From: Methanothrix soehngenii GP6 | GTDB lineage: Archaea; Halobacteriota; Methanosarcinia; Methanotrichales; Methanotrichaceae | Length of the DNA: 64,000 nt | Direction of reading: 5' to 3' | NCBI RefSeq assembly: GCF_000204415.1 | Contig: NC_015416.1 | Coordinates: 2,480,001 to 2,544,000, forward strand | In this document: positions 54,812 to 64,000 of the stretch, piece by piece | Numbering within the stretch: position 1 is the first letter of the stretch | Layout: each line of letters opens with the position of its first letter | The notes under the pieces: generated by a model | Told to the model about the DNA's origin: nothing | The model's input: the letters and a program-made list of their open reading frames with translations, nothing else | Database searches by the model: none | Translations under genes and position numbers: made by a program

Positions 54812-54852
54812 GATAATATCGTATTATCGTCTTATGGCGATAAGCTTATATC
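54812..54852 (+). promoter_or_regulatory. Operator/promoter of arsR copy A
   Basis: Perfect dyad GATAATA-TCG-TATTATC (54812-54828), then CTTAT-GGCG-ATAAG (54831-54844) abutting the TATA-like CTTATATC (54845-54852), ~30 nt before the ATG. Candidate ArsR binding sites. Confidence 0.55.
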
Positions 54853-54879
54853 TGAATATGCTTTAATCGCGCTCCAATC

Positions 54880-55224
54880 ATGGCTCAAAAGAATGTCTCT
54901 GAACTGCGCTTGAAGATTCTGAGCGCTCTGTCCGATCCCACCCGTCTGGAGCTGCTCGAATACCTGAGCGGGGGCGAGCGATGCGTTTGCGAGATCCTTC
55001 CCGCCTTCTCCAGATCTCAGTCCACCATATCCAAGCATCTGAATATCCTCTTCGAGGCCGACATTCTGGATCGCAGAATAGACGGGAAAAAGACGCTCTA
55101 CAGCATAAAAGACCCTCAGGTTTTCGAATTGGTTCGCCTTGTAGACCAGATGGCCCTAAAGCAGATATCGCAGCTCGCAGAAGCAGGAAGGATTATCGAG
55201 GAGTCATTGAGCTGCGGGAGATAG
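54880..55224 (+). CDS. arsR: ArsR-family regulator, copy A
   Basis: 114-aa winged-helix repressor. 'LKILSALSDPTRLELLEYLS' opens the domain, 'SRSQSTISKHLNILFEADIL' is the recognition helix, and 'RIDGKKTLYSI' the wing. 'ERCVCEIL' matches the CxC (ELCVCDL-like) metalloid-sensing site of ArsR, so As(III)/Sb(III) or another soft ligand may be the inducer. Transcript predicted to be nearly leaderless. The permease gene follows within 5 nt, so autoregulation of a two-gene operon is likely. Nearly identical to the regulator at 58076. Confidence 0.9.
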   Translation: MAQKNVSELRLKILSALSDPTRLELLEYLSGGERCVCEILPAFSRSQSTISKHLNILFEADILDRRIDGKKTLYSIKDPQVFELVRLVDQMALKQISQLAEAGRIIEESLSCGR

Positions 55225-55229
55225 ATTTC

Positions 55230-56315
55230 ATGGCAACCTATGTCATAATGGCAGCCTTGGAGGCCGGGCTGGCAACACTGCTTGAATACCTCTCGGCGCA
55301 TGTATTGACCTGCCTGGTGCCAGCATTCTTCATCGCCGGTGCGATAGCAGCTCTCTTGAACAAGGATACTGTGCTCAAGTACTTCGGTGCTGATGCCCCA
55401 AAGTGGCTCTGCTACAGCGTGGCTTCCACCTCGGGGACTATATTGGCCGTCTGCAGCTGCACCATCCTGCCCATGTTTGCAGGAATCGAAAAGAGAGGGG
55501 CGGGCATTGGGCCAGCAACGGCCTTCCTCTTCTCCGGACCGGCGATAAACCTCATGGCCATCATCCTCACAGCCAGGGTCTTGGGCCTGGACCTGGGTGT
55601 AGCCAGGGCAGTGGCTGCAGTCTTCATGGCCGTGGTTATAGGTCTGATCATGGCGGCTATATTCCAAAGACATGACCCAAGCTGCAAAAACGATGCGGCT
55701 CCTTCTTCTTTTGATGTCGATCCAGACCCGGATCAAATGAGCCGGCCCAAATATATCACTGGCACATTTATGGCCGTGCTGGTGGCCATACTGCTCGTTG
55801 CCACCTCAAGCGCCATAGAGCTCCTGCCCAAGGCGATAATCGTGGGAGCGCTGATAGCAGTGGCTGCCTTCCTGATGAATAGATACTACCAGCCAGAGGA
55901 AAAGAGCGCCTTCCTGGAAGAGACCTGGTGGCTGACCAGGAAGATCTTTCCTCTCCTGGTAGTGGGCACATTTGTAACCGGGGTGATCGGCTACTTCCTG
56001 CCGGTTGAATGGGTAAGGACCATCTTTGGCACCAGCAGCTTTCTGGCCTGTTTTCTGGCCTCAGTGATCGGCTCGTTGCTCTATATGCCTACATTGCTTG
56101 AGGTGCCAGTAGTCGGAACTCTTTTCGGCTATAGCACGGGAGTTACGGCTGCCGGTCCTGCTCTGGCCCTTCTGCTTGCTGGTCCATCCCTGAGCCTTCC
56201 CAATATGATTGTTATCTGGAGGATAGTTGGAGCGAAAAAGGCCAGCGTCTACATCAGCCTGGTGGTGATCCTATCCACATTGGTGGGAATGCTCTACGGT
56301 GCCGTCGTTTCATAA
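55230..56315 (+). CDS. Permease of the DUF318/ArsP family, copy A
   Basis: 361 aa with two four- or five-helix bundles separated by a polar loop (residues ~148-172, 'RHDPSCKNDAAPSSFDVDPD'). Family motifs: 'VCSCTILPMFAGI' with a Cys pair in the membrane, 'GIGPATAFLFSGPAINLMAI', and the mirror half 'SVIGSLLYMPTLLEVPVVG' and 'GPALALLLAGPSLSLPNMIV'. Members (COG0701) include ArsP, which exports trivalent organoarsenicals, and relatives linked to other soft thiol-reactive compounds. Control by the ArsR protein just upstream supports export of such a compound. Start ATG 55230. Confidence 0.88.
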   Translation: MATYVIMAALEAGLATLLEYLSAHVLTCLVPAFFIAGAIAALLNKDTVLKYFGADAPKWLCYSVASTSGTILAVCSCTILPMFAGIEKRGAGIGPATAFLFSGPAINLMAIILTARVLGLDLGVARAVAAVFMAVVIGLIMAAIFQRHDPSCKNDAAPSSFDVDPDPDQMSRPKYITGTFMAVLVAILLVATSSAIELLPKAIIVGALIAVAAFLMNRYYQPEEKSAFLEETWWLTRKIFPLLVVGTFVTGVIGYFLPVEWVRTIFGTSSFLACFLASVIGSLLYMPTLLEVPVVGTLFGYSTGVTAAGPALALLLAGPSLSLPNMIVIWRIVGAKKASVYISLVVILSTLVGMLYGAVVS

Positions 56316-57925: not shown

Positions 57926-58026
57926 CCGGGAAAGATATCCGCTATTACGGAGTATTAAGGCGATGCTCTCAAAACAAACGTGATGCTCTAAATGTGGTTC
58001 GATTAGATGTGCATTTCTATTATCGT

Positions 58027-58048
58027 CTTATGGCGATAAGTTTATATC
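58027..58048 (+). promoter_or_regulatory. Operator/promoter of arsR copy B
   Basis: CTTATGGCGATAAG (58027-58040) followed by TTTATATC (58041-58048). Only the right half (TATTATC) of the upstream dyad seen in copy A is retained. Confidence 0.5.
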
Positions 58049-58075
58049 GGAATATGCATTAATCGCGCTTTAATC

Positions 58076-58420
58076 ATGGCTCAAAAGAATGTCTCTGAAC
58101 TGCGCTTAAAGATTCTGAGCGCTCTGTCCGATCCCATCCGTCTGGAGCTGCTCGAATTCCTGAGCGGGGGCGAGCGATGCGTTTGCGAGATCCTTCCCGC
58201 CTTCTCCAGATCTCAGTCCACCATATCCAAACATCTGAACATCCTCTTCGAGGCCGACATTCTGGATCGCAGAATAGACGGGAAAAAGACGCTCTACAGC
58301 ATAAAAGACCCTCAGGTTTTCGAATTGGTTCGCCTTGTAGACCGGATGGCCTTAAAGCAGATATCGCAGCTCGCAGAAGCAGGAAGGATTCTCGAGGAAT
58401 CATTGGGCATCGGGAGATGA
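58076..58420 (+). CDS. arsR: ArsR-family regulator, copy B
   Basis: 114 aa, differing from copy A at only a handful of positions (for example Pro-Ile for Pro-Thr near residue 21 and 'LGIGR' for 'LSCGR' at the end). Winged helix with 'SRSQSTISKHLNILFEADIL' and the CxC motif 'ERCVCEIL'. Leaderless, with an operator similar to but shorter than that of copy A. Its stop overlaps the permease start by ATGA, tighter coupling than in copy A. Because both repressors keep the same recognition helix, cross-regulation between the two units is likely. Confidence 0.9.
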   Translation: MAQKNVSELRLKILSALSDPIRLELLEFLSGGERCVCEILPAFSRSQSTISKHLNILFEADILDRRIDGKKTLYSIKDPQVFELVRLVDRMALKQISQLAEAGRILEESLGIGR

Positions 58421-59511
58421 TATTTACGGTAACTTATACCATCATGGCAGCCTTGGAGGCCGGGCTGGCAACGCTGCTTGAATACCTTTCGGCGCATGTC
58501 TTGACCTGCCTTGTGCCAGCATTCTTCATAGCCGGTGCAATAGCAGCTCTCTTGAACAAGGATACTGTGCTCAAGTACTTCGGTGCTGATGCTCCCAAGT
58601 GGCTCTGCTACAGCGTGGCTTCCACCTCAGGGACCATATTGGCAGTGTGCAGCTGCACCATCCTGCCCATGTTTGCAGGAATCGAAAAGAGAGGCGCAGG
58701 CATTGGGCCGGCAACGGCCTTCCTCTTCTCCGGACCGGCGATAAACCTCATGGCCATCATCCTCACAGCCAGGGTCCTGGGCCTGGACCTGGGCATAGCC
58801 AGGGCAGTGGCCGCAGTGATCATGGCCGTGGTCATAGGTCTGATCATGGCGGCCATGTTCCAAAAACATGACCCAAGCTGCAAAACCGATGTTGCTCCTT
58901 CTATGATTCAGGCCGATCCAAAGCCAGATCAGATGAGCCGGCCAAATTATATCACAGGCACATTTATGGCAGTTCTGGTGGCCATACTGCTCGTTGCCAC
59001 CTCAAGTGCCATAGAGCTCCTGCCCAAGGCGATAATTGTGGGAGCGCTGATAGCAGTGGCCGCCTTCCTTATGAACAAGTATTACGAGCCAGAGGAAAAG
59101 AGCGCCTTCCTGGAAGAGACCTGGTGGCTGACCAAGAAGATCTTTCCTCTGCTGGTAGTGGGCACATTTGTAACCGGGGTGATCGGCTACTTCCTGCCGG
59201 TTGAATGGGTCAGGACAATCTTCGGCACCAGCAGCTTTCTGGCCTGCTTTCTGGCCTCAGTGATCGGCTCGTTGCTTTATATGCCCACATTGCTTGAGGT
59301 GCCGATCGTCGGCACTCTCTTCGGCTACAGCACGGGAGTTATGGCTGCCGGTCCTGCTCTGGCCCTTCTGCTTGCTGGCCCCTCCTTGAGCCTACCCAGT
59401 ATGATAGTTATCTGGAGGATCATTGGAGCGAAAAAAGCCAGCGTCTACATCAGCCTGGTGGTGATCTTATCCACATTGGTGGGAATGCTCTACGGTGCCA
59501 TCGTTTCATAA
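58417..59511 (+). CDS. Permease of the DUF318/ArsP family, copy B
   Basis: 364 aa starting MIFTVTYTIMAALEAGLATL. Sequence is close to copy A throughout the membrane parts; differences cluster in the cytoplasmic or external loop ('KHDPSCKTDVAPSMIQADPK') and at the N-terminus. 'VCSCTILPMFAGI' and the duplicated half-motifs are kept. Followed after 22 nt by an exported protein and then a redox gene set, whereas copy A is followed by the convergent hpt gene. Copy B is thus the one likely to work with the downstream cluster. Confidence 0.88.
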   Translation: MIFTVTYTIMAALEAGLATLLEYLSAHVLTCLVPAFFIAGAIAALLNKDTVLKYFGADAPKWLCYSVASTSGTILAVCSCTILPMFAGIEKRGAGIGPATAFLFSGPAINLMAIILTARVLGLDLGIARAVAAVIMAVVIGLIMAAMFQKHDPSCKTDVAPSMIQADPKPDQMSRPNYITGTFMAVLVAILLVATSSAIELLPKAIIVGALIAVAAFLMNKYYEPEEKSAFLEETWWLTKKIFPLLVVGTFVTGVIGYFLPVEWVRTIFGTSSFLACFLASVIGSLLYMPTLLEVPIVGTLFGYSTGVMAAGPALALLLAGPSLSLPSMIVIWRIIGAKKASVYISLVVILSTLVGMLYGAIVS

Positions 59512-59533
59512 TTGATAAAAGGAGTGAGATAAA

Positions 59534-60097
59534 ATGAGATACTATGCCATTCGGGCCATAATTGCATTGGCCTGTATATTCCTTCTGGCGAGCTGTGCTG
59601 GAGCGGTGAAAGTCACTTCTGCATTGCATATCGATACCTATACCGACGCCGAGAATGAGGATCAGAGCTTTGGAGAAGAGAGCGCTGTATGGGTCTCATC
59701 CCACATGGGGGAGCCTGTGAGGATTGCCTATCTCTCCTTTGCCGGCATGACCAAGCTGCCCGAGCAGATAAGCTCCGCCAACCTGAAGATCTACGTCAAA
59801 GGGGTGGAAAGGCCAGGAAAGGTGACTCTCTACCTTTACGATAATGCAGCCATGAACACCGTTACCTGGGCGGATCAGCCTGAATATGATTCGCAGGCCC
59901 TGGGAAGCATAGAGATTCAGGAGACAGGCTGGCAGACCTGGGATGCTACAGATTTTGTGAAAAAGGCGGCAGTAGAGTGCAGCGAGGGCTGTTCCTTCTC
60001 AGTGGTTTTGGTGGCTGATGAAGATGCCTCCATAAGCTTCGCCTCCCAAGAGGGATCCGAGGAGGAGAAGGCTGTCTTGCAGTATGAAGCATTCTGA
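59534..60097 (+). CDS. Exported DNRLRE-like protein
   Basis: 187 aa. Signal peptide ('AIIALACIFLLASCAGA', with a Cys that could also be a lipobox). Mature part: 'SALHIDTYTDAENEDQSFGE', 'RIAYLSFAGMTKLPEQISS', 'ANLKIYVKGVERPGKVTLYL', 'VTWADQPEYDSQALGS' and 'GWQTWDATDFVKKA', the DNRLRE sandwich pattern with Asp-rich loops that may bind calcium. GGAGTGAGAT is 4-9 nt upstream of the ATG and the permease stop is 22 nt away, so it belongs to the copy B operon. Role in that operon unknown. Confidence 0.78.
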   Translation: MRYYAIRAIIALACIFLLASCAGAVKVTSALHIDTYTDAENEDQSFGEESAVWVSSHMGEPVRIAYLSFAGMTKLPEQISSANLKIYVKGVERPGKVTLYLYDNAAMNTVTWADQPEYDSQALGSIEIQETGWQTWDATDFVKKAAVECSEGCSFSVVLVADEDASISFASQEGSEEEKAVLQYEAF

Positions 60098-60211
60098 TGA
60101 TCGATAGAACCGATCGATGAGAATAGCAGCAGAATCGGAGAAAAATCGCCGGAGAAGAATACCTCCCTCCGGCATAATCCTATTCAGATTAAGCGATGCG
60201 GGAAAAGTGAG

Positions 60212-61306
60212 ATGAAGGCCAGACGGCGAATCACAGCAGTTCTGCTGACGGTAGCCCTATTCATGGTTCTATTGCCTGCTGCTGCATGGGCTAACAGCGA
60301 GATAACTGTAATCACCTCTCCCGGTTGCAGCAAGTGCGCTGCTGCAGAAAGGGCGCTGACAGAGGTTCTGTCTAATTACCAGGAGAGCACCTTTGAAGAG
60401 GTTATATTTTCCAGTGAAGAGGGACACAGGATCGTAAAGGAGCATAAGGTCAAGGATGTTCCATCGATAATCATCGGCAGTTCGGTTATCGGCTACAAAG
60501 ACTATGGTGGAAACGAAAGCAGACTTAAGATACTAATCAATGCTGCTTTGCAGGGAGAGAATATCAGCGTTAAGAGTGAGGATGAAACAGATAGCAATCT
60601 GAATATTGAAGATGCACTGCAAAATCTTAACCTATCTTCCGCTGTCACTGTCTTTGCGGCTGGCCTTCTGGCGGGCTTCAACCCCTGTCTTCTGGCTATA
60701 CTGGCCTTTCTGGCGAGCACCGTGCTGGCCAGCTCCGGCCGAAGAAGGGATCTATTGACCATGATAGCACTCTTCTCCCTGGGCATATTCGTTGTTTACT
60801 ACATATTCGGAGTAGGCCTGTTCAATGTTCTGCAGGAGAAGTCCACTGCCACCATGTTTAAACTTGTTCTGGCAGCCGTACTGCTGATCCTGGGCTTGAC
60901 TCAGATGGAAGACGGGAGAAGGTTGAATGCAGGACGGGATTCCCTCTTTCGCACAGATTGGGCTATGAAGTATGTGCATGGTGCTCTGGCCAGCAAGAGG
61001 CTTAGCTCCTATTTCCTATTAGGTGCACTGTTCTCTTTAGTGAAGGCCCCCTGTGTAGGAGCGGTCTATATCGCCATCATAGGGGTTATTTCCAGCCATG
61101 GATATTCCTCGTCAGGTCTGATATATCTGATGTTATACAACCTGGGAATAGTGCTTCCCGTGCTGCTCTTGGGAGTTATCATGACCCTTGGCATGAGCCC
61201 GGAGCAGGTGGACGATTTCCGGAATAATCACAAAGTGGCCATAAGAGTGATAACAGGGCTTACATTGATCATTCTTGCTCCGCTGATTTACTGGGAGCTG
61301 ATTTGA
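60212..61306 (+). CDS. Exported glutaredoxin-like domain fused to CcdA/DsbD-type membrane protein
   Basis: 364 aa. Signal peptide or first helix 'AVLLTVALFMVLLPAAAWA'. Residues ~28-110 form a thioredoxin-fold domain with 'TSPGCSKCAAAERAL' (CxxC) and the cis-Pro strand 'VKDVPSIIIG'. Residues ~145-364 are a CcdA-type six-helix electron carrier with its paired Cys sites: 'GLLAGFNPCLLAILAFLAS' and 'SLVKAPCVGAVYIAIIGV'. It should pass reducing equivalents from cytoplasmic thioredoxin across the membrane to the fused outer CxxC domain. The next gene supplies a matching cytoplasmic thioredoxin-like protein. Confidence 0.9.
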   Translation: MKARRRITAVLLTVALFMVLLPAAAWANSEITVITSPGCSKCAAAERALTEVLSNYQESTFEEVIFSSEEGHRIVKEHKVKDVPSIIIGSSVIGYKDYGGNESRLKILINAALQGENISVKSEDETDSNLNIEDALQNLNLSSAVTVFAAGLLAGFNPCLLAILAFLASTVLASSGRRRDLLTMIALFSLGIFVVYYIFGVGLFNVLQEKSTATMFKLVLAAVLLILGLTQMEDGRRLNAGRDSLFRTDWAMKYVHGALASKRLSSYFLLGALFSLVKAPCVGAVYIAIIGVISSHGYSSSGLIYLMLYNLGIVLPVLLLGVIMTLGMSPEQVDDFRNNHKVAIRVITGLTLIILAPLIYWELI

Positions 61307-61328
61307 GCTAAAAAGGAAGGCGAATTAA

Positions 61329-61565
61329 ATGGTAAAGATTGAAGTTCTGGGGACAGGCTGCGCCAAGTGCAAGAGCCTGCTGAAGAATGTGGAGAAAGCA
61401 GTAGCAGAATTGGGCGTCTCTGCTGAGGTGGTCAAGGTTGACAGCATCCAGGAGATAATGGACAGAGGTGTGATGATGACCCCTGCCCTTTACATCGACG
61501 GAAAGTCAATGATGGCGGGCAGAACGGCAACAGTTGAAGAGATCAAGAGGATGCTTCAGAAATAA
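61329..61565 (+). CDS. Small thioredoxin-fold redox protein (TIGR00412 type)
   Basis: 78 aa. 'MVKIEVLGTGCAKCKSLLKN' carries the CxxC (Cys-Ala-Lys-Cys), and 'GVMMTPALYIDGK' the cis-proline. This is the compact redox-active disulfide family known from methanogens (MTH895-like), often next to COG0701 permeases and ArsR regulators. It is the likely electron donor for the CcdA-type protein 22 nt upstream. Cytoplasmic. Confidence 0.9.
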   Translation: MVKIEVLGTGCAKCKSLLKNVEKAVAELGVSAEVVKVDSIQEIMDRGVMMTPALYIDGKSMMAGRTATVEEIKRMLQK

Positions 61566-61579
61566 GGGTGACCTGAATT

Positions 61580-61726
61580 ATGGATGAGAAGAGATGCACT
61601 TGTGGTACAATGGATGTGCGCGTAGTAGCCTGTTCAGGCGGCTCGAATGTGGGACAGATCGCGAATGATGCAGCAAAAGCCTGTTCACTGGTGGTAGAGA
61701 AGGTAAAAGATGAGCTTGCCGCATGA
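61580..61726 (+). CDS. Miniature DGC-type (putative zinc-binding) protein, 48 aa
   Basis: Starts MDEKRCTCGTMDVRVVACSG and continues 'GSNVGQIANDAAKACSLVVE' to a Lys/Glu-rich helix. The beginning matches the N-terminus of DGC-domain 'putative zinc-binding' proteins (CSGGSNVGQ...AND.A), which are normally about 110-130 residues; here the sequence jumps to a C-terminal-like helix. GGTGA lies ~8 nt before the ATG. Four Cys (two in CTC, one in ACSG, one in KACS) could bind zinc or another thiophile. It could be functional in miniature or an internal-deletion relic. Confidence 0.6.
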   Translation: MDEKRCTCGTMDVRVVACSGGSNVGQIANDAAKACSLVVEKVKDELAA

Positions 61727-61743
61727 AATCAGGTAGGTGCGAT

Positions 61744-62814
61744 ATGAGTATTCTAAATGCAAAAAAAAGCATAACATGCGCTCTTTTGCTGGCTACCCTG
61801 GCCCTTACGCAGAGCGCATATGGCGGGGCTGAATGTGCTTCCCTTGGCGGCGGCTGCGATGACGGCGGCGACTGGGATCCCATGGCCAAGCTGGATGAGA
61901 TAGGCACCGGAATATACGACCAGGCTCAGGCCAGCGCAAATTGGCCCGCAGAGTCGAGGAAACAAAGATGGAATATGTCTTCCGGCAGCGAGGACAGCCA
62001 GGGGGAGGACGGGGCTGCATCTACTATTAAGGAAGATGTGAGAGCTGATCTGAGCGCTGAGCAGAGTACTGGCAGGTGGCATGAGATAATAATTGAGATT
62101 GATGAGATCTCAAATGAGAATGTTCTCCTGGATGTCAGCGAGAGTGCCAAAGAGCACATCTCTGGATCTATAGCCATTCCTTATCAGGAGTTCCTGCAAG
62201 GGGACTCGCTCAAATCCGTGCCGGAATTGGCAGAGATCCTCGGAAATGCCGGAATCTCCAGTGATGATCCCCTGGTCATCTATGGAGAGTGCCTGCCTTG
62301 CGGAGGAGGGCCATCGGCTTCAGCCTATGTCTACTGGATGCTTAAATCCCTGGGGCATGAAGATGTCAGGATCCTAAACGGATATGTGCAGGACTGGAAG
62401 GATAAAGGACTGCCGGTATCATCAAATGCGACCACTAGGCCTGTTGCTGAATACGTACCTCAATTCACCGATCAGTATATTGGAAGCTATAATTATGTGA
62501 AGAGCGGCCAGGCTCAAGTGGTAGACGCCAGGACAGTTTTAGAGTACGAATCGGGAACGATCCCCTCTGCCATCAGCATTCCTTATGAGAGTGTCCTTGA
62601 TGGCGATAAGCTGAGGAATGTGAATGAGCTGGATGAGCGCTTTTTCATTTTGGATAAAGAGCAACAGGTTGTGGCATTTACAAACACGGGCTTCAAAGGC
62701 TCTGTTTTATGGCTTGCCCTGGAGATCATGGGCTATGATGCCCGGCTCTACAGCTACCAGAATTGGATGGCAAATCAGCTCATAGAGCAAAGATCCAGTG
62801 ATGCCCAGGAGTGA
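61744..62814 (+). CDS. Exported tandem rhodanese-domain protein 1
   Basis: 356 aa from ATG 61744 (AGGT 5 nt upstream; ATG 61723 overlaps the preceding stop and is less likely). Signal peptide 'ITCALLLATLALTQSAYG'. A ~75-residue polar spacer with Cys-Asp-rich 'ECASLGGGCDDGGDW' is followed by two rhodanese-like domains. In the first the active loop is 'YGECLPCGGGPSASAYVYWM', keeping a Cys in CxxC; in the second the loop 'AFTNTGFKGSVLWLAL' has no Cys, so only one domain can form a persulfide. Sulfur or selenium transfer outside the cell membrane is inferred. Confidence 0.82.
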   Translation: MSILNAKKSITCALLLATLALTQSAYGGAECASLGGGCDDGGDWDPMAKLDEIGTGIYDQAQASANWPAESRKQRWNMSSGSEDSQGEDGAASTIKEDVRADLSAEQSTGRWHEIIIEIDEISNENVLLDVSESAKEHISGSIAIPYQEFLQGDSLKSVPELAEILGNAGISSDDPLVIYGECLPCGGGPSASAYVYWMLKSLGHEDVRILNGYVQDWKDKGLPVSSNATTRPVAEYVPQFTDQYIGSYNYVKSGQAQVVDARTVLEYESGTIPSAISIPYESVLDGDKLRNVNELDERFFILDKEQQVVAFTNTGFKGSVLWLALEIMGYDARLYSYQNWMANQLIEQRSSDAQE

Positions 62815-62819
62815 TGGTT

Positions 62820-64000
62820 ATGATTTACTTGAATTTGTTTCGGATGAGCAAAATGGGAAACGGAAAAGCTACAGCCTTTGCATCGGCTTTGACCTTACTC
62901 CTCCTTTGCCTGGCTTTAGCCCACCCGGCTCTGGCAGGCACGGAAACCGGCGAATTTTGCCCCACCTGTCCTGACTGGACCGATATGGATGGCTGGCTGG
63001 CCAAGAAGGAGGCATACGAGCAGGAGCAGCAGCAAAAAGCTCAGCTTGAAAAGGAAGCGATAACACTGACCACGCAGAATGCGCCTCCTGAGCAGGTGCA
63101 GGTCCCACCCGAAAGCAATCCGGCTACTGGAGGCATTTCGAGAGTGAGGACAGGCAACTTTGCCCAGGCACTTGTATCCCCTCAAGAGGTCTTATCTGAT
63201 GATATTGTGCTGGACATAAGCCCCAGCGCGACAAGATATATCGAAGGGGCAGTCAATATCAACTATGAGCGCTTTTATGCCGAAGGTGGCCGGTTCAGAT
63301 CCGTTGGGGAGATCGCAGAGCTTTTGGGCCAGGCAGGAATTTCTCGAAATGACTCTCTGGTGATTGCAGGCGAGTGTCTTCCATGCGGTGGCGGCCCTTC
63401 TCCTGCCGTCTTCAGCTACTGGATTCTCAAGTATCTCGGCCAGGAAAAGGTCAGAGTCCTGGATGGCAGCATTGAAGACTGGGCAGCAGCCGGACTAAAC
63501 ACCAGCAATGTGTCTGCTATGAGGCCGAGGACCGACTACATTCCAGCTCTCAGGCCAGAGCTTCTTGCCACCTATGACTTCGTCGTTAACGGCGGGGCTC
63601 AGATTGTGGATGCCAGGCCGCCTGGAGACTTCAGCATAGGCTCAATCCCCGGCGCGATTAACATTCCTTTCGAGAGTGTGGTGGAAGACGAGACTGTAAG
63701 GGCACAGGAGGATCTGGAGAAGGTTTTTGTCGGCCTGGATAAGGCTCGGCCCATCGTCGTCTACACCAATGTCGGCGTTGAGGCCTCTTTAGTATGGTTT
63801 GCCCTGACCCTATCCGGTTATGATGCCCGGCTTTATACCTGGCGGGACTGGCTGGAAAATCAGCCAAAATTCGGCTATGAGCTGACAGAGGCTAGGGCCG
63901 AGCCCAATCCGGTGAGGTCGGGAATGGCCACAACTATAACGGCATCATTCCGGGAAAGGGATAGTGATGCGGAGGAGATTTCATCCTCAGGCAATTCCTC
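62820..64000 (+). CDS. Exported tandem rhodanese-domain protein 2, partial
   Basis: Runs off the right edge. ATG 62820 is favoured by GGAGTGA 5 nt upstream; ATG 62814 in the same frame is possible. Signal peptide near residues 15-37 ('ALTLLLLCLALAHPALAG'). A 'FCPTCPDW' Cys pair and a Gln/Glu-rich helix lead into two rhodanese domains: the first with 'AGECLPCGGGPSPAVFSYW', the second with 'VYTNVGVEASLVWFAL' lacking Cys. It is a tandem paralogue of the preceding protein with the same division into active and inactive domains. After the second domain a Ser/Glu-rich tail begins. Confidence 0.85.
   Translation, partial: MIYLNLFRMSKMGNGKATAFASALTLLLLCLALAHPALAGTETGEFCPTCPDWTDMDGWLAKKEAYEQEQQQKAQLEKEAITLTTQNAPPEQVQVPPESNPATGGISRVRTGNFAQALVSPQEVLSDDIVLDISPSATRYIEGAVNINYERFYAEGGRFRSVGEIAELLGQAGISRNDSLVIAGECLPCGGGPSPAVFSYWILKYLGQEKVRVLDGSIEDWAAAGLNTSNVSAMRPRTDYIPALRPELLATYDFVVNGGAQIVDARPPGDFSIGSIPGAINIPFESVVEDETVRAQEDLEKVFVGLDKARPIVVYTNVGVEASLVWFALTLSGYDARLYTWRDWLENQPKFGYELTEARAEPNPVRSGMATTITASFRERDSDAEEISSSGNS

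Follow-up and report, generated by a model that had tools for sequence, protein, structure and literature searches.

An ArsR-linked permease operon of Methanothrix soehngenii GP6 with exported-type rhodaneses and remodelled cysteine sites

Introduction

In methanogens and other Halobacteriota, clusters are known that combine ArsR, the permease ArsP (COG0701), a thioredoxin of family TIGR00412 and a DGC protein, and the NCBIfam names ArsE and ArsG refer to aromatic arsenical efflux. Rhodaneses are part of other described clusters. A 2026 review lists the three-selenoprotein operon Tso, in which TsoB is, by NCBIfam names, a rhodanese/DsbD fusion selenoprotein and TsoR an ArsR-type regulator (PMC13188914). 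ExtH is a rhodanese-like protein of the selenite/tellurite reduction cluster of Geobacter (PMC5877670). A Methanothrix rhodanese has been called sseA and serves as a quantitative PCR target (PMC10470525). Here we analyze an operon-like gene array at the end of a 64,000-nucleotide stretch of the Methanothrix soehngenii GP6 genome (hereafter, the window; G000:C1:2480001-2544000; the genome totals 3,026,645 bases in two contigs, of which the larger has 3,008,626), in which genes for an ArsR regulator and an ArsP permease are followed by redox proteins and two rhodanese genes. Coordinates are window positions unless another locus or the genome is named.

Methanothrix feeds on acetate and is a major biological source of methane, and to our knowledge the thiol chemistry of its outer surface and its resistance to metals have hardly been described. 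Our literature search returned one paper mentioning a Methanothrix rhodanese and no functional study of these proteins, and no papers on the mechanism of ArsE/ArsG. The reading that we favor, with moderate confidence, is that the array is an ArsR-controlled operon for soft-metalloid efflux and repair, whose rhodaneses act as exported dithiol proteins fed by CcdA instead of as classical sulfurtransferases.

Results

All genes of the array are located on the plus strand in the order given by a preliminary description of this DNA, i.e., ArsR, ArsP permease, CBM96/DNRLRE protein, thioredoxin-CcdA fusion (Trx-CcdA), thioredoxin, mini-DGC, rhodanese A (RhoA) and rhodanese B (RhoB). The intergenic gaps are 0-25 bases, with the exception of 114 bases 5' of the Trx-CcdA gene, and coding regions overlap at ArsR/permease, mini-DGC/RhoA and RhoA/RhoB. 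The first gene (58076-58420) encodes an ArsR/SmtB-family regulator with a CVC metalloid-binding box (ERCVCEI), which scored above the cut-offs of PF01022 (HTH_5; 3.8e-15) and NF033788 in the profile searches. The permease (58417-59511, its start at about 58417 overlapping the ArsR stop) belongs to ArsP_1 (DUF318/COG0701; PF03773, 7.3e-72, 242 bits against a gathering score of 32.3) and has an intramembrane AVCSCTILP motif that is kept among orthologues; it may export trivalent organoarsenicals, and it fell under the SaoE cut-off in the NCBIfam search. A probably exported CBM96/DNRLRE protein follows (59534-60097; PF24517, 1.4e-33, and NF033679 above cut-off). The Trx-CcdA protein (60212-61306) joins a thioredoxin/glutaredoxin-like N-terminal domain with a CSKC motif (Thioredoxin_3, 0.00022, under cut-off) to a CcdA/DsbD transmembrane domain (PF02683, 6.2e-12, above cut-off), and the next gene (61329-61565) encodes a small cytoplasmic thioredoxin-like protein of the MTH895/ArsE family with a CAKC motif (TIGR00412, 104.2 bits, cut-off 62). 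Beyond the mini-DGC gene (61580-61726), the array closes with the two-domain RhoA (61723-62814) and with RhoB (62811-64000 and past the window end), which has a C-terminal beta domain in addition. RhoB is 518 aa long and its gene ends 367 bases past the window (L009:13367).

The rhodaneses of this array retain the fold of thiosulfate sulfurtransferases (TSTs) and differ from them at the active site. PF00581 matched twice above its cut-off, giving tandem rhodanese domains. The predicted model of RhoA has a pLDDT >90 for 232 residues, matched the TST fold at 1e-16 in Foldseek and gave a Z score of 27.1 to Rv3117 over 234 residues, and the model of a RhoB orthologue likewise has the full two-domain TST fold. 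The ECLPCGGGP loop noted in the preliminary description was found in both proteins. Profile alignment with Rv3117 and its relatives placed CLPCG in a domain-1 loop where the enzyme has no cysteine; in canonical two-domain enzymes, domain 1 is the inactive half. In domain 2, YTNTG or FTNTG stands in place of the YCRIG of solved enzymes, with threonine at the position of the catalytic cysteine. The suggestion that each rhodanese has one dead domain understated the change, given that the cysteine was lost from the canonically active domain and a CxxC occupies the canonically dead one.

RhoA has the loop CxxC (C190/C193) and an N-terminal pair (C38/C45), and RhoB has an N-terminal CPTC, the loop CxxC and a second CxxC in the C-terminal beta domain. 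The loop CxxC is invariant in a 30-row alignment and at least 90% conserved in a 50-row alignment that includes forms linked to the arsenite exporter ACR3; both loop cysteines and both C-terminal cysteines are invariant in the 39-row RhoB alignment. The conserved cysteines thus come in pairs, at the N-terminus, in the loop and, in RhoB, in the C-terminal domain. Both rhodaneses are assumed to be exported on the basis of a hydrophobic N-terminal segment. Distant relatives mostly hold both the CxxC(GG) in domain 1 and a VVYCxSG in domain 2, and three genomes of this group carry an McrA with DQCTACGSYSYQSDEG, which we take to be of the ANME-1 type. The simplest history would be that the CxxC was gained and the sulfurtransferase cysteine was then lost in Methanotrichaceae. 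In two relatives with ANME-1-type McrA (loci L204 and L208, with L220 and L221), only about 5 kb separate mcrA from a gene for a rhodanese of this family.

A predicted ArsR operator would link the rhodaneses to the regulator. It pairs a palindrome, ATCG-N8-CGAT (58022-58037), with a TATA box right after it (58040-58047), and the whole element (58022-58047, plus strand) ends about 30 bases 5' of the ArsR start. ArsR orthologues have in common the ERCVCEI/EKCVC box (CVC in 18 of the 18 listed) and the upstream palindrome directly before the TATA box. In the whole GP6 genome the operator plus TATA motif was found at three sites and never in the reversed control. Two are 5' of ArsR-permease genes, i.e., those of the array and those of a tandem duplicate on the same strand (54826-56315), which comprises the operator with one mismatch, ArsR (54880-55224) and a permease (to 56315), is 93% identical to 58018-59524 over 1508 bases, and is devoid of the downstream genes. 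The third site (genome position 2690545, two mismatches) is located about 145 bases 5' of a thioredoxin-DGC-RhoA-RhoB cluster that has neither ArsR nor permease, in which a second rhodanese pair (2690715-2694215) follows the thioredoxin gene and an intact DGC gene. Across the genus, the motif had 26 matches in 19 of 26 genomes and none in reversed sequence; nine of these loci were fetched as a check, and eight have ArsR-ArsP directly downstream while the ninth runs off its contig. Because the motif occurs only three times in the genome, one of them before the ArsR-less rhodanese cluster, the shared predicted operator points to an ArsR regulon that would reach the rhodaneses in trans. Its distribution is the strongest independent evidence for placing the rhodaneses within the ArsR response. 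Unrelated promoters, an outcome that the preliminary description had named as damaging, were not what we found; the array forms a single operon-like unit.

The association is conserved in relatives. RhoA relatives are present in all 50 Methanotrichaceae genomes and the thioredoxin in 44, and the fetched loci repeatedly have the order ArsR-ArsP-(CBM96)-(Trx-CcdA)-thioredoxin-DGC-RhoA-RhoB, or a subset of it. A same-strand rhodanese of the window family was located ≤3 kb from an ArsE-type thioredoxin in 25 of 29 Methanotrichaceae loci (23 of 27 genomes), a set that was partly picked by rhodanese position and is thus somewhat biased; two of the four loci without a rhodanese sit <1 kb from a contig end. 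The 20 control loci from other families of the phylum, picked by the thioredoxin only, contained no open reading frame matching the rhodanese profile, and ArsP and DGC were frequent neighbors there. Given this linkage inside the family and its absence outside, the widespread ArsP-thioredoxin-DGC core has gained the rhodaneses, and their Trx-CcdA partner, in Methanotrichaceae. The conserved co-occurrence with the permease that the preliminary description had proposed to look for was therefore borne out. A scan of genome contigs for the rhodanese family returned Methanotrichaceae, metagenome-assembled loci labeled Methanosarcinales or Euryarchaeota, a few weak bacterial TST-like matches, and nothing else. 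The phylum search gave weaker matches in many other families, which by score resemble ordinary TSTs, and longer, stronger matches in one group, the one that includes the three genomes with ANME-1-type McrA.

Exported-type rhodaneses are accompanied by Trx-CcdA in three kinds of locus, i.e., the ars type of the window, a NosD type and an ACR3 type. The NosD type has the order NosD-RhoA-RhoB-subtilase, with CBM96 and Trx-CcdA divergent upstream. Around 30 NosD genes we counted rhodanese in 30 (a count biased because these loci were fetched by rhodanese similarity), subtilase in 29, CBM96 in 21 and Trx-CcdA in 20. This locus (L012:2802-9506 and orthologues) also has an aldolase-like gene and is conserved across Methanotrichaceae genera. 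The ACR3 type has the order ArsR-rhodanese-ACR3 with another Trx-CcdA pair divergent; the exporter scored above its cut-off, has its own rhodanese, and adjoins or is near the module studied here in several genomes. The ACR3-linked rhodanese of GP6 (L011:7160-8056 = G000:C1:2567160-2568056) has an in-frame TAA in its second domain and is intact in relatives. In a tree built by a quick method, ars RhoA groups with NosD-locus RhoA and ars RhoB with NosD-locus RhoB (support 88-100 at most relevant forks). This pairing suggests that an existing tandem rhodanese pair was copied between loci.

The mini-DGC protein of the preliminary description did not survive alignment. Set against the intact DGC proteins encoded elsewhere, in other clusters, the 48-aa product is a full 126-134 aa DGC protein minus an in-frame internal stretch, so the middle of the domain is gone and no complete domain with a DGCPxxC motif is present in the window copy. 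A full-length DGC gene is present in orthologous clusters. We therefore regard the gene as a decayed remnant and reject a functional mini-DGC protein.

Several further features were observed around the array. The only long gap (60098-60211) contains a GC-rich inverted repeat (gccggag...ctccggc), spotted by eye, which may be a processing or attenuation site. Beyond the window, where the preliminary description had advised inspection, RhoB is followed on the opposite strand by a TauE/SafE permease gene and a second DGC gene that is short at its N-terminus (L009:13426-15472). A TauE-sized open reading frame and a DGC gene are likewise located 3' of the cluster in locus L107. An apparent IS110-type transposase gene, recognized by eye, lies about 2.2 kb past the RhoB end (L009:15604-16902).

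Discussion

The ArsP_1 permease, the ArsE-type thioredoxin and DGC constitute the old core of this operon; we infer the export of the rhodaneses, the electron flow from Trx-CcdA, the binding or reduction chemistry and the arsenic-like substrate. ArsR with its CVC box would sit on the predicted operator over the TATA box until metalloid binding frees it. The cytoplasmic thioredoxin would then hold substrate or permease thiols reduced while ArsP exports a trivalent, thiol-loving (organo)metalloid, and Trx-CcdA would move electrons through the membrane and hand them to the rhodaneses at their outer CxxC sites (the N-terminal pair, the domain-1 loop and, in RhoB, the C-terminal pair). The reduced dithiols could bind or pass on the exported metalloid, re-reduce damaged surface thiols, or both. 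We prefer a dithiol role over sulfurtransfer because the catalytic cysteine of domain 2 was lost and the CxxC is conserved instead. More tentatively, the rhodanese fold may have been turned into an extracytoplasmic dithiol carrier, so far in one methanogen family, that draws electrons from CcdA through a CxPC in the once-dead domain and receives, outside the cell, the metalloids that ArsP exports; this would be a third use of CcdA electrons, beside DsbC/DsbG-like and Trx-like proteins.

Several points weigh against the metalloid-dithiol interpretation. The case for arsenic as the substrate consists of the ArsR, ArsP and ACR3 family assignments. A rhodanese-thioredoxin-DGC unit occurs with no ArsP nearby in several genomes (L089, L090, L092), so the permease may not be an obligate partner of the rhodanese unit. 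Rhodaneses also occur widely across Methanotrichaceae at the NosD locus, where no ArsR gene adjoins them; this pattern suggests an older, general function of these proteins. Lastly, the ACR3-linked rhodaneses of the L011 type, which also lack the domain-2 catalytic cysteine, have no loop cysteines, so the protein does not require the CxxC in every setting.

Two other roles for the rhodaneses are each unlikely, though with some support. In the first, put forward in the preliminary description, they are non-classical sulfurtransferases or persulfide carriers, with one cysteine of the CxxC carrying sulfur (or selenium), the other releasing it, and CcdA giving the electrons. The complete two-domain TST fold fits this, as do the known TsoB rhodanese-DsbD fusion and ExtH rhodanese of selenium- and metalloid-linked clusters and the sulfite-exporter-type TauE/SafE permease adjoining the operon; the ancestor was probably a sulfurtransferase, since the canonical VVYCxSG loop persists in the relatives with ANME-1-type McrA. 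However, the canonical domain-2 cysteine is missing in the aligned Methanotrichaceae rows, the ECxPCGGGP loop differs from the CxxGxR-type catalytic loop and exceeds it in length, and the recurrent cysteines are spaced pairs at three sites. As a default, a thiosulfate sulfurtransferase or persulfide role is not supported, given the lost domain-2 cysteine and the CxxC conserved in its stead.

In the second, which we consider equally improbable, the exported rhodaneses serve a general thiol-disulfide maturation of the envelope, folding or repairing cysteine-bearing surface proteins (the NosD beta-helix, the sheath), and the ars operon merely induces extra copies under thiol stress. The presence of the family in every Methanotrichaceae genome searched, the second conserved locus that unites it with NosD, subtilase, CBM96 and Trx-CcdA, and the tree pairing of ars and NosD rhodaneses, as expected for a copied pair, are all consistent with this. 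Mthe_1071 of M. thermoacetophila comes two locus numbers after the sheath gene mspA (Mthe_1069; PMC10470525). Against this role, the ars-type pairs branch separately in the tree and have a metalloid-type operator in common, and a single genome showed the sheath linkage; as no MspA match was found in the surveyed rhodanese loci, we reject a general rhodanese-mspA link. At L093:4522-8678, two genes that appear from their order and size to be those for the major sheath protein, Mthe_1069 (mspA) and Mthe_1070, precede a family rhodanese with an ECRPCGG motif.

More doubtful still is that the operon handles copper or another soft metal, with the CxxC sites as metal ligands. CVC boxes occur in Cd/Pb sensors too, NosD is annotated as a periplasmic copper-binding protein, and among named NCBIfam families the permease matches SO_0444 Cu/Zn efflux (NF033936) best. 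That match reached a score of 94.7, far under the cut-off of 300, and the association with the ACR3 arsenite exporter and the ArsE-type thioredoxin argues against this reading. A chance neighborhood of unrelated in-line genes, for which the decayed DGC gene might speak, is refuted by the gene order conserved in many genomes and by the shared operator, and we give it almost no credence.

Should the metalloid-dithiol interpretation hold, an arsenic-type operon would be tied to an exported thiol system fed by CcdA, and a rhodanese scaffold would have become a CxxC protein, with an apparent intermediate bearing both sites in the relatives with ANME-1-type McrA. For testing, the locus provides an operator present at three sites of the genome, two pairs of rhodaneses and a defined electron carrier. 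A warning also follows against annotating the CxxC rhodaneses of Methanotrichaceae as sseA sulfurtransferases.

Comparison with described systems narrows what is new. None of the cut-offs for Tso, SO_0444, ArsG or ExtH was reached, and membership in these systems was rejected. Rv3117, the Thermus rhodanese and SseA have the same fold over 234 residues (Z 26-27), whereas in the window proteins the domain-2 catalytic cysteine is replaced, a CxxC is inserted in the domain-1 loop and N- and C-terminal cysteine pairs are added; the multi-rhodanese YnjE of E. coli is alike in its multi-domain fold (Z 23) and has a longer chain. The window thioredoxin is above the ArsE-family cut-off and the CcdA part is weakly ArsG-like (NF040495, 40.8 bits against a cut-off of 200), but the window adds exported-type rhodaneses, and its CcdA protein carries a further Trx domain at the N-terminus. 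ExtH shares with the window a rhodanese-like protein in a metalloid-related redox cluster; its profile (NF040901) did not match the window rhodaneses at E 1e-5, and only relatives in other families scored, far below the cut-off.

Like the window array, Tso brings together a rhodanese, a DsbD-type carrier and a regulator of the ArsR type. The window system differs in being archaeal, in having the rhodanese and CcdA as separate genes and in using cysteines, not selenocysteine. Its ArsR scored 29.4 against the TsoR cut-off of 115, the TsoB profile had no match to the window rhodaneses or Trx-CcdA at E 1e-5, and relatives fell far below the cut-off of 805. By analogy, TsoB is a useful precedent for the coupling of rhodanese and CcdA. 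The Halobacteriota clusters are the nearest, having ArsP_1, ArsE-type thioredoxin and DGC as neighbors, often with ArsR or ACR3, but in the 20 loci checked they lack labeled CBM96 or window-type Trx-CcdA genes as well as the rhodaneses. With this core common in Halobacteriota and the Tso and ExtH precedents known, "candidate new system", as the preliminary description put it, is too strong; what is new is the Methanotrichaceae-specific addition of rhodaneses and Trx-CcdA, together with the remodelled active site of the rhodaneses.

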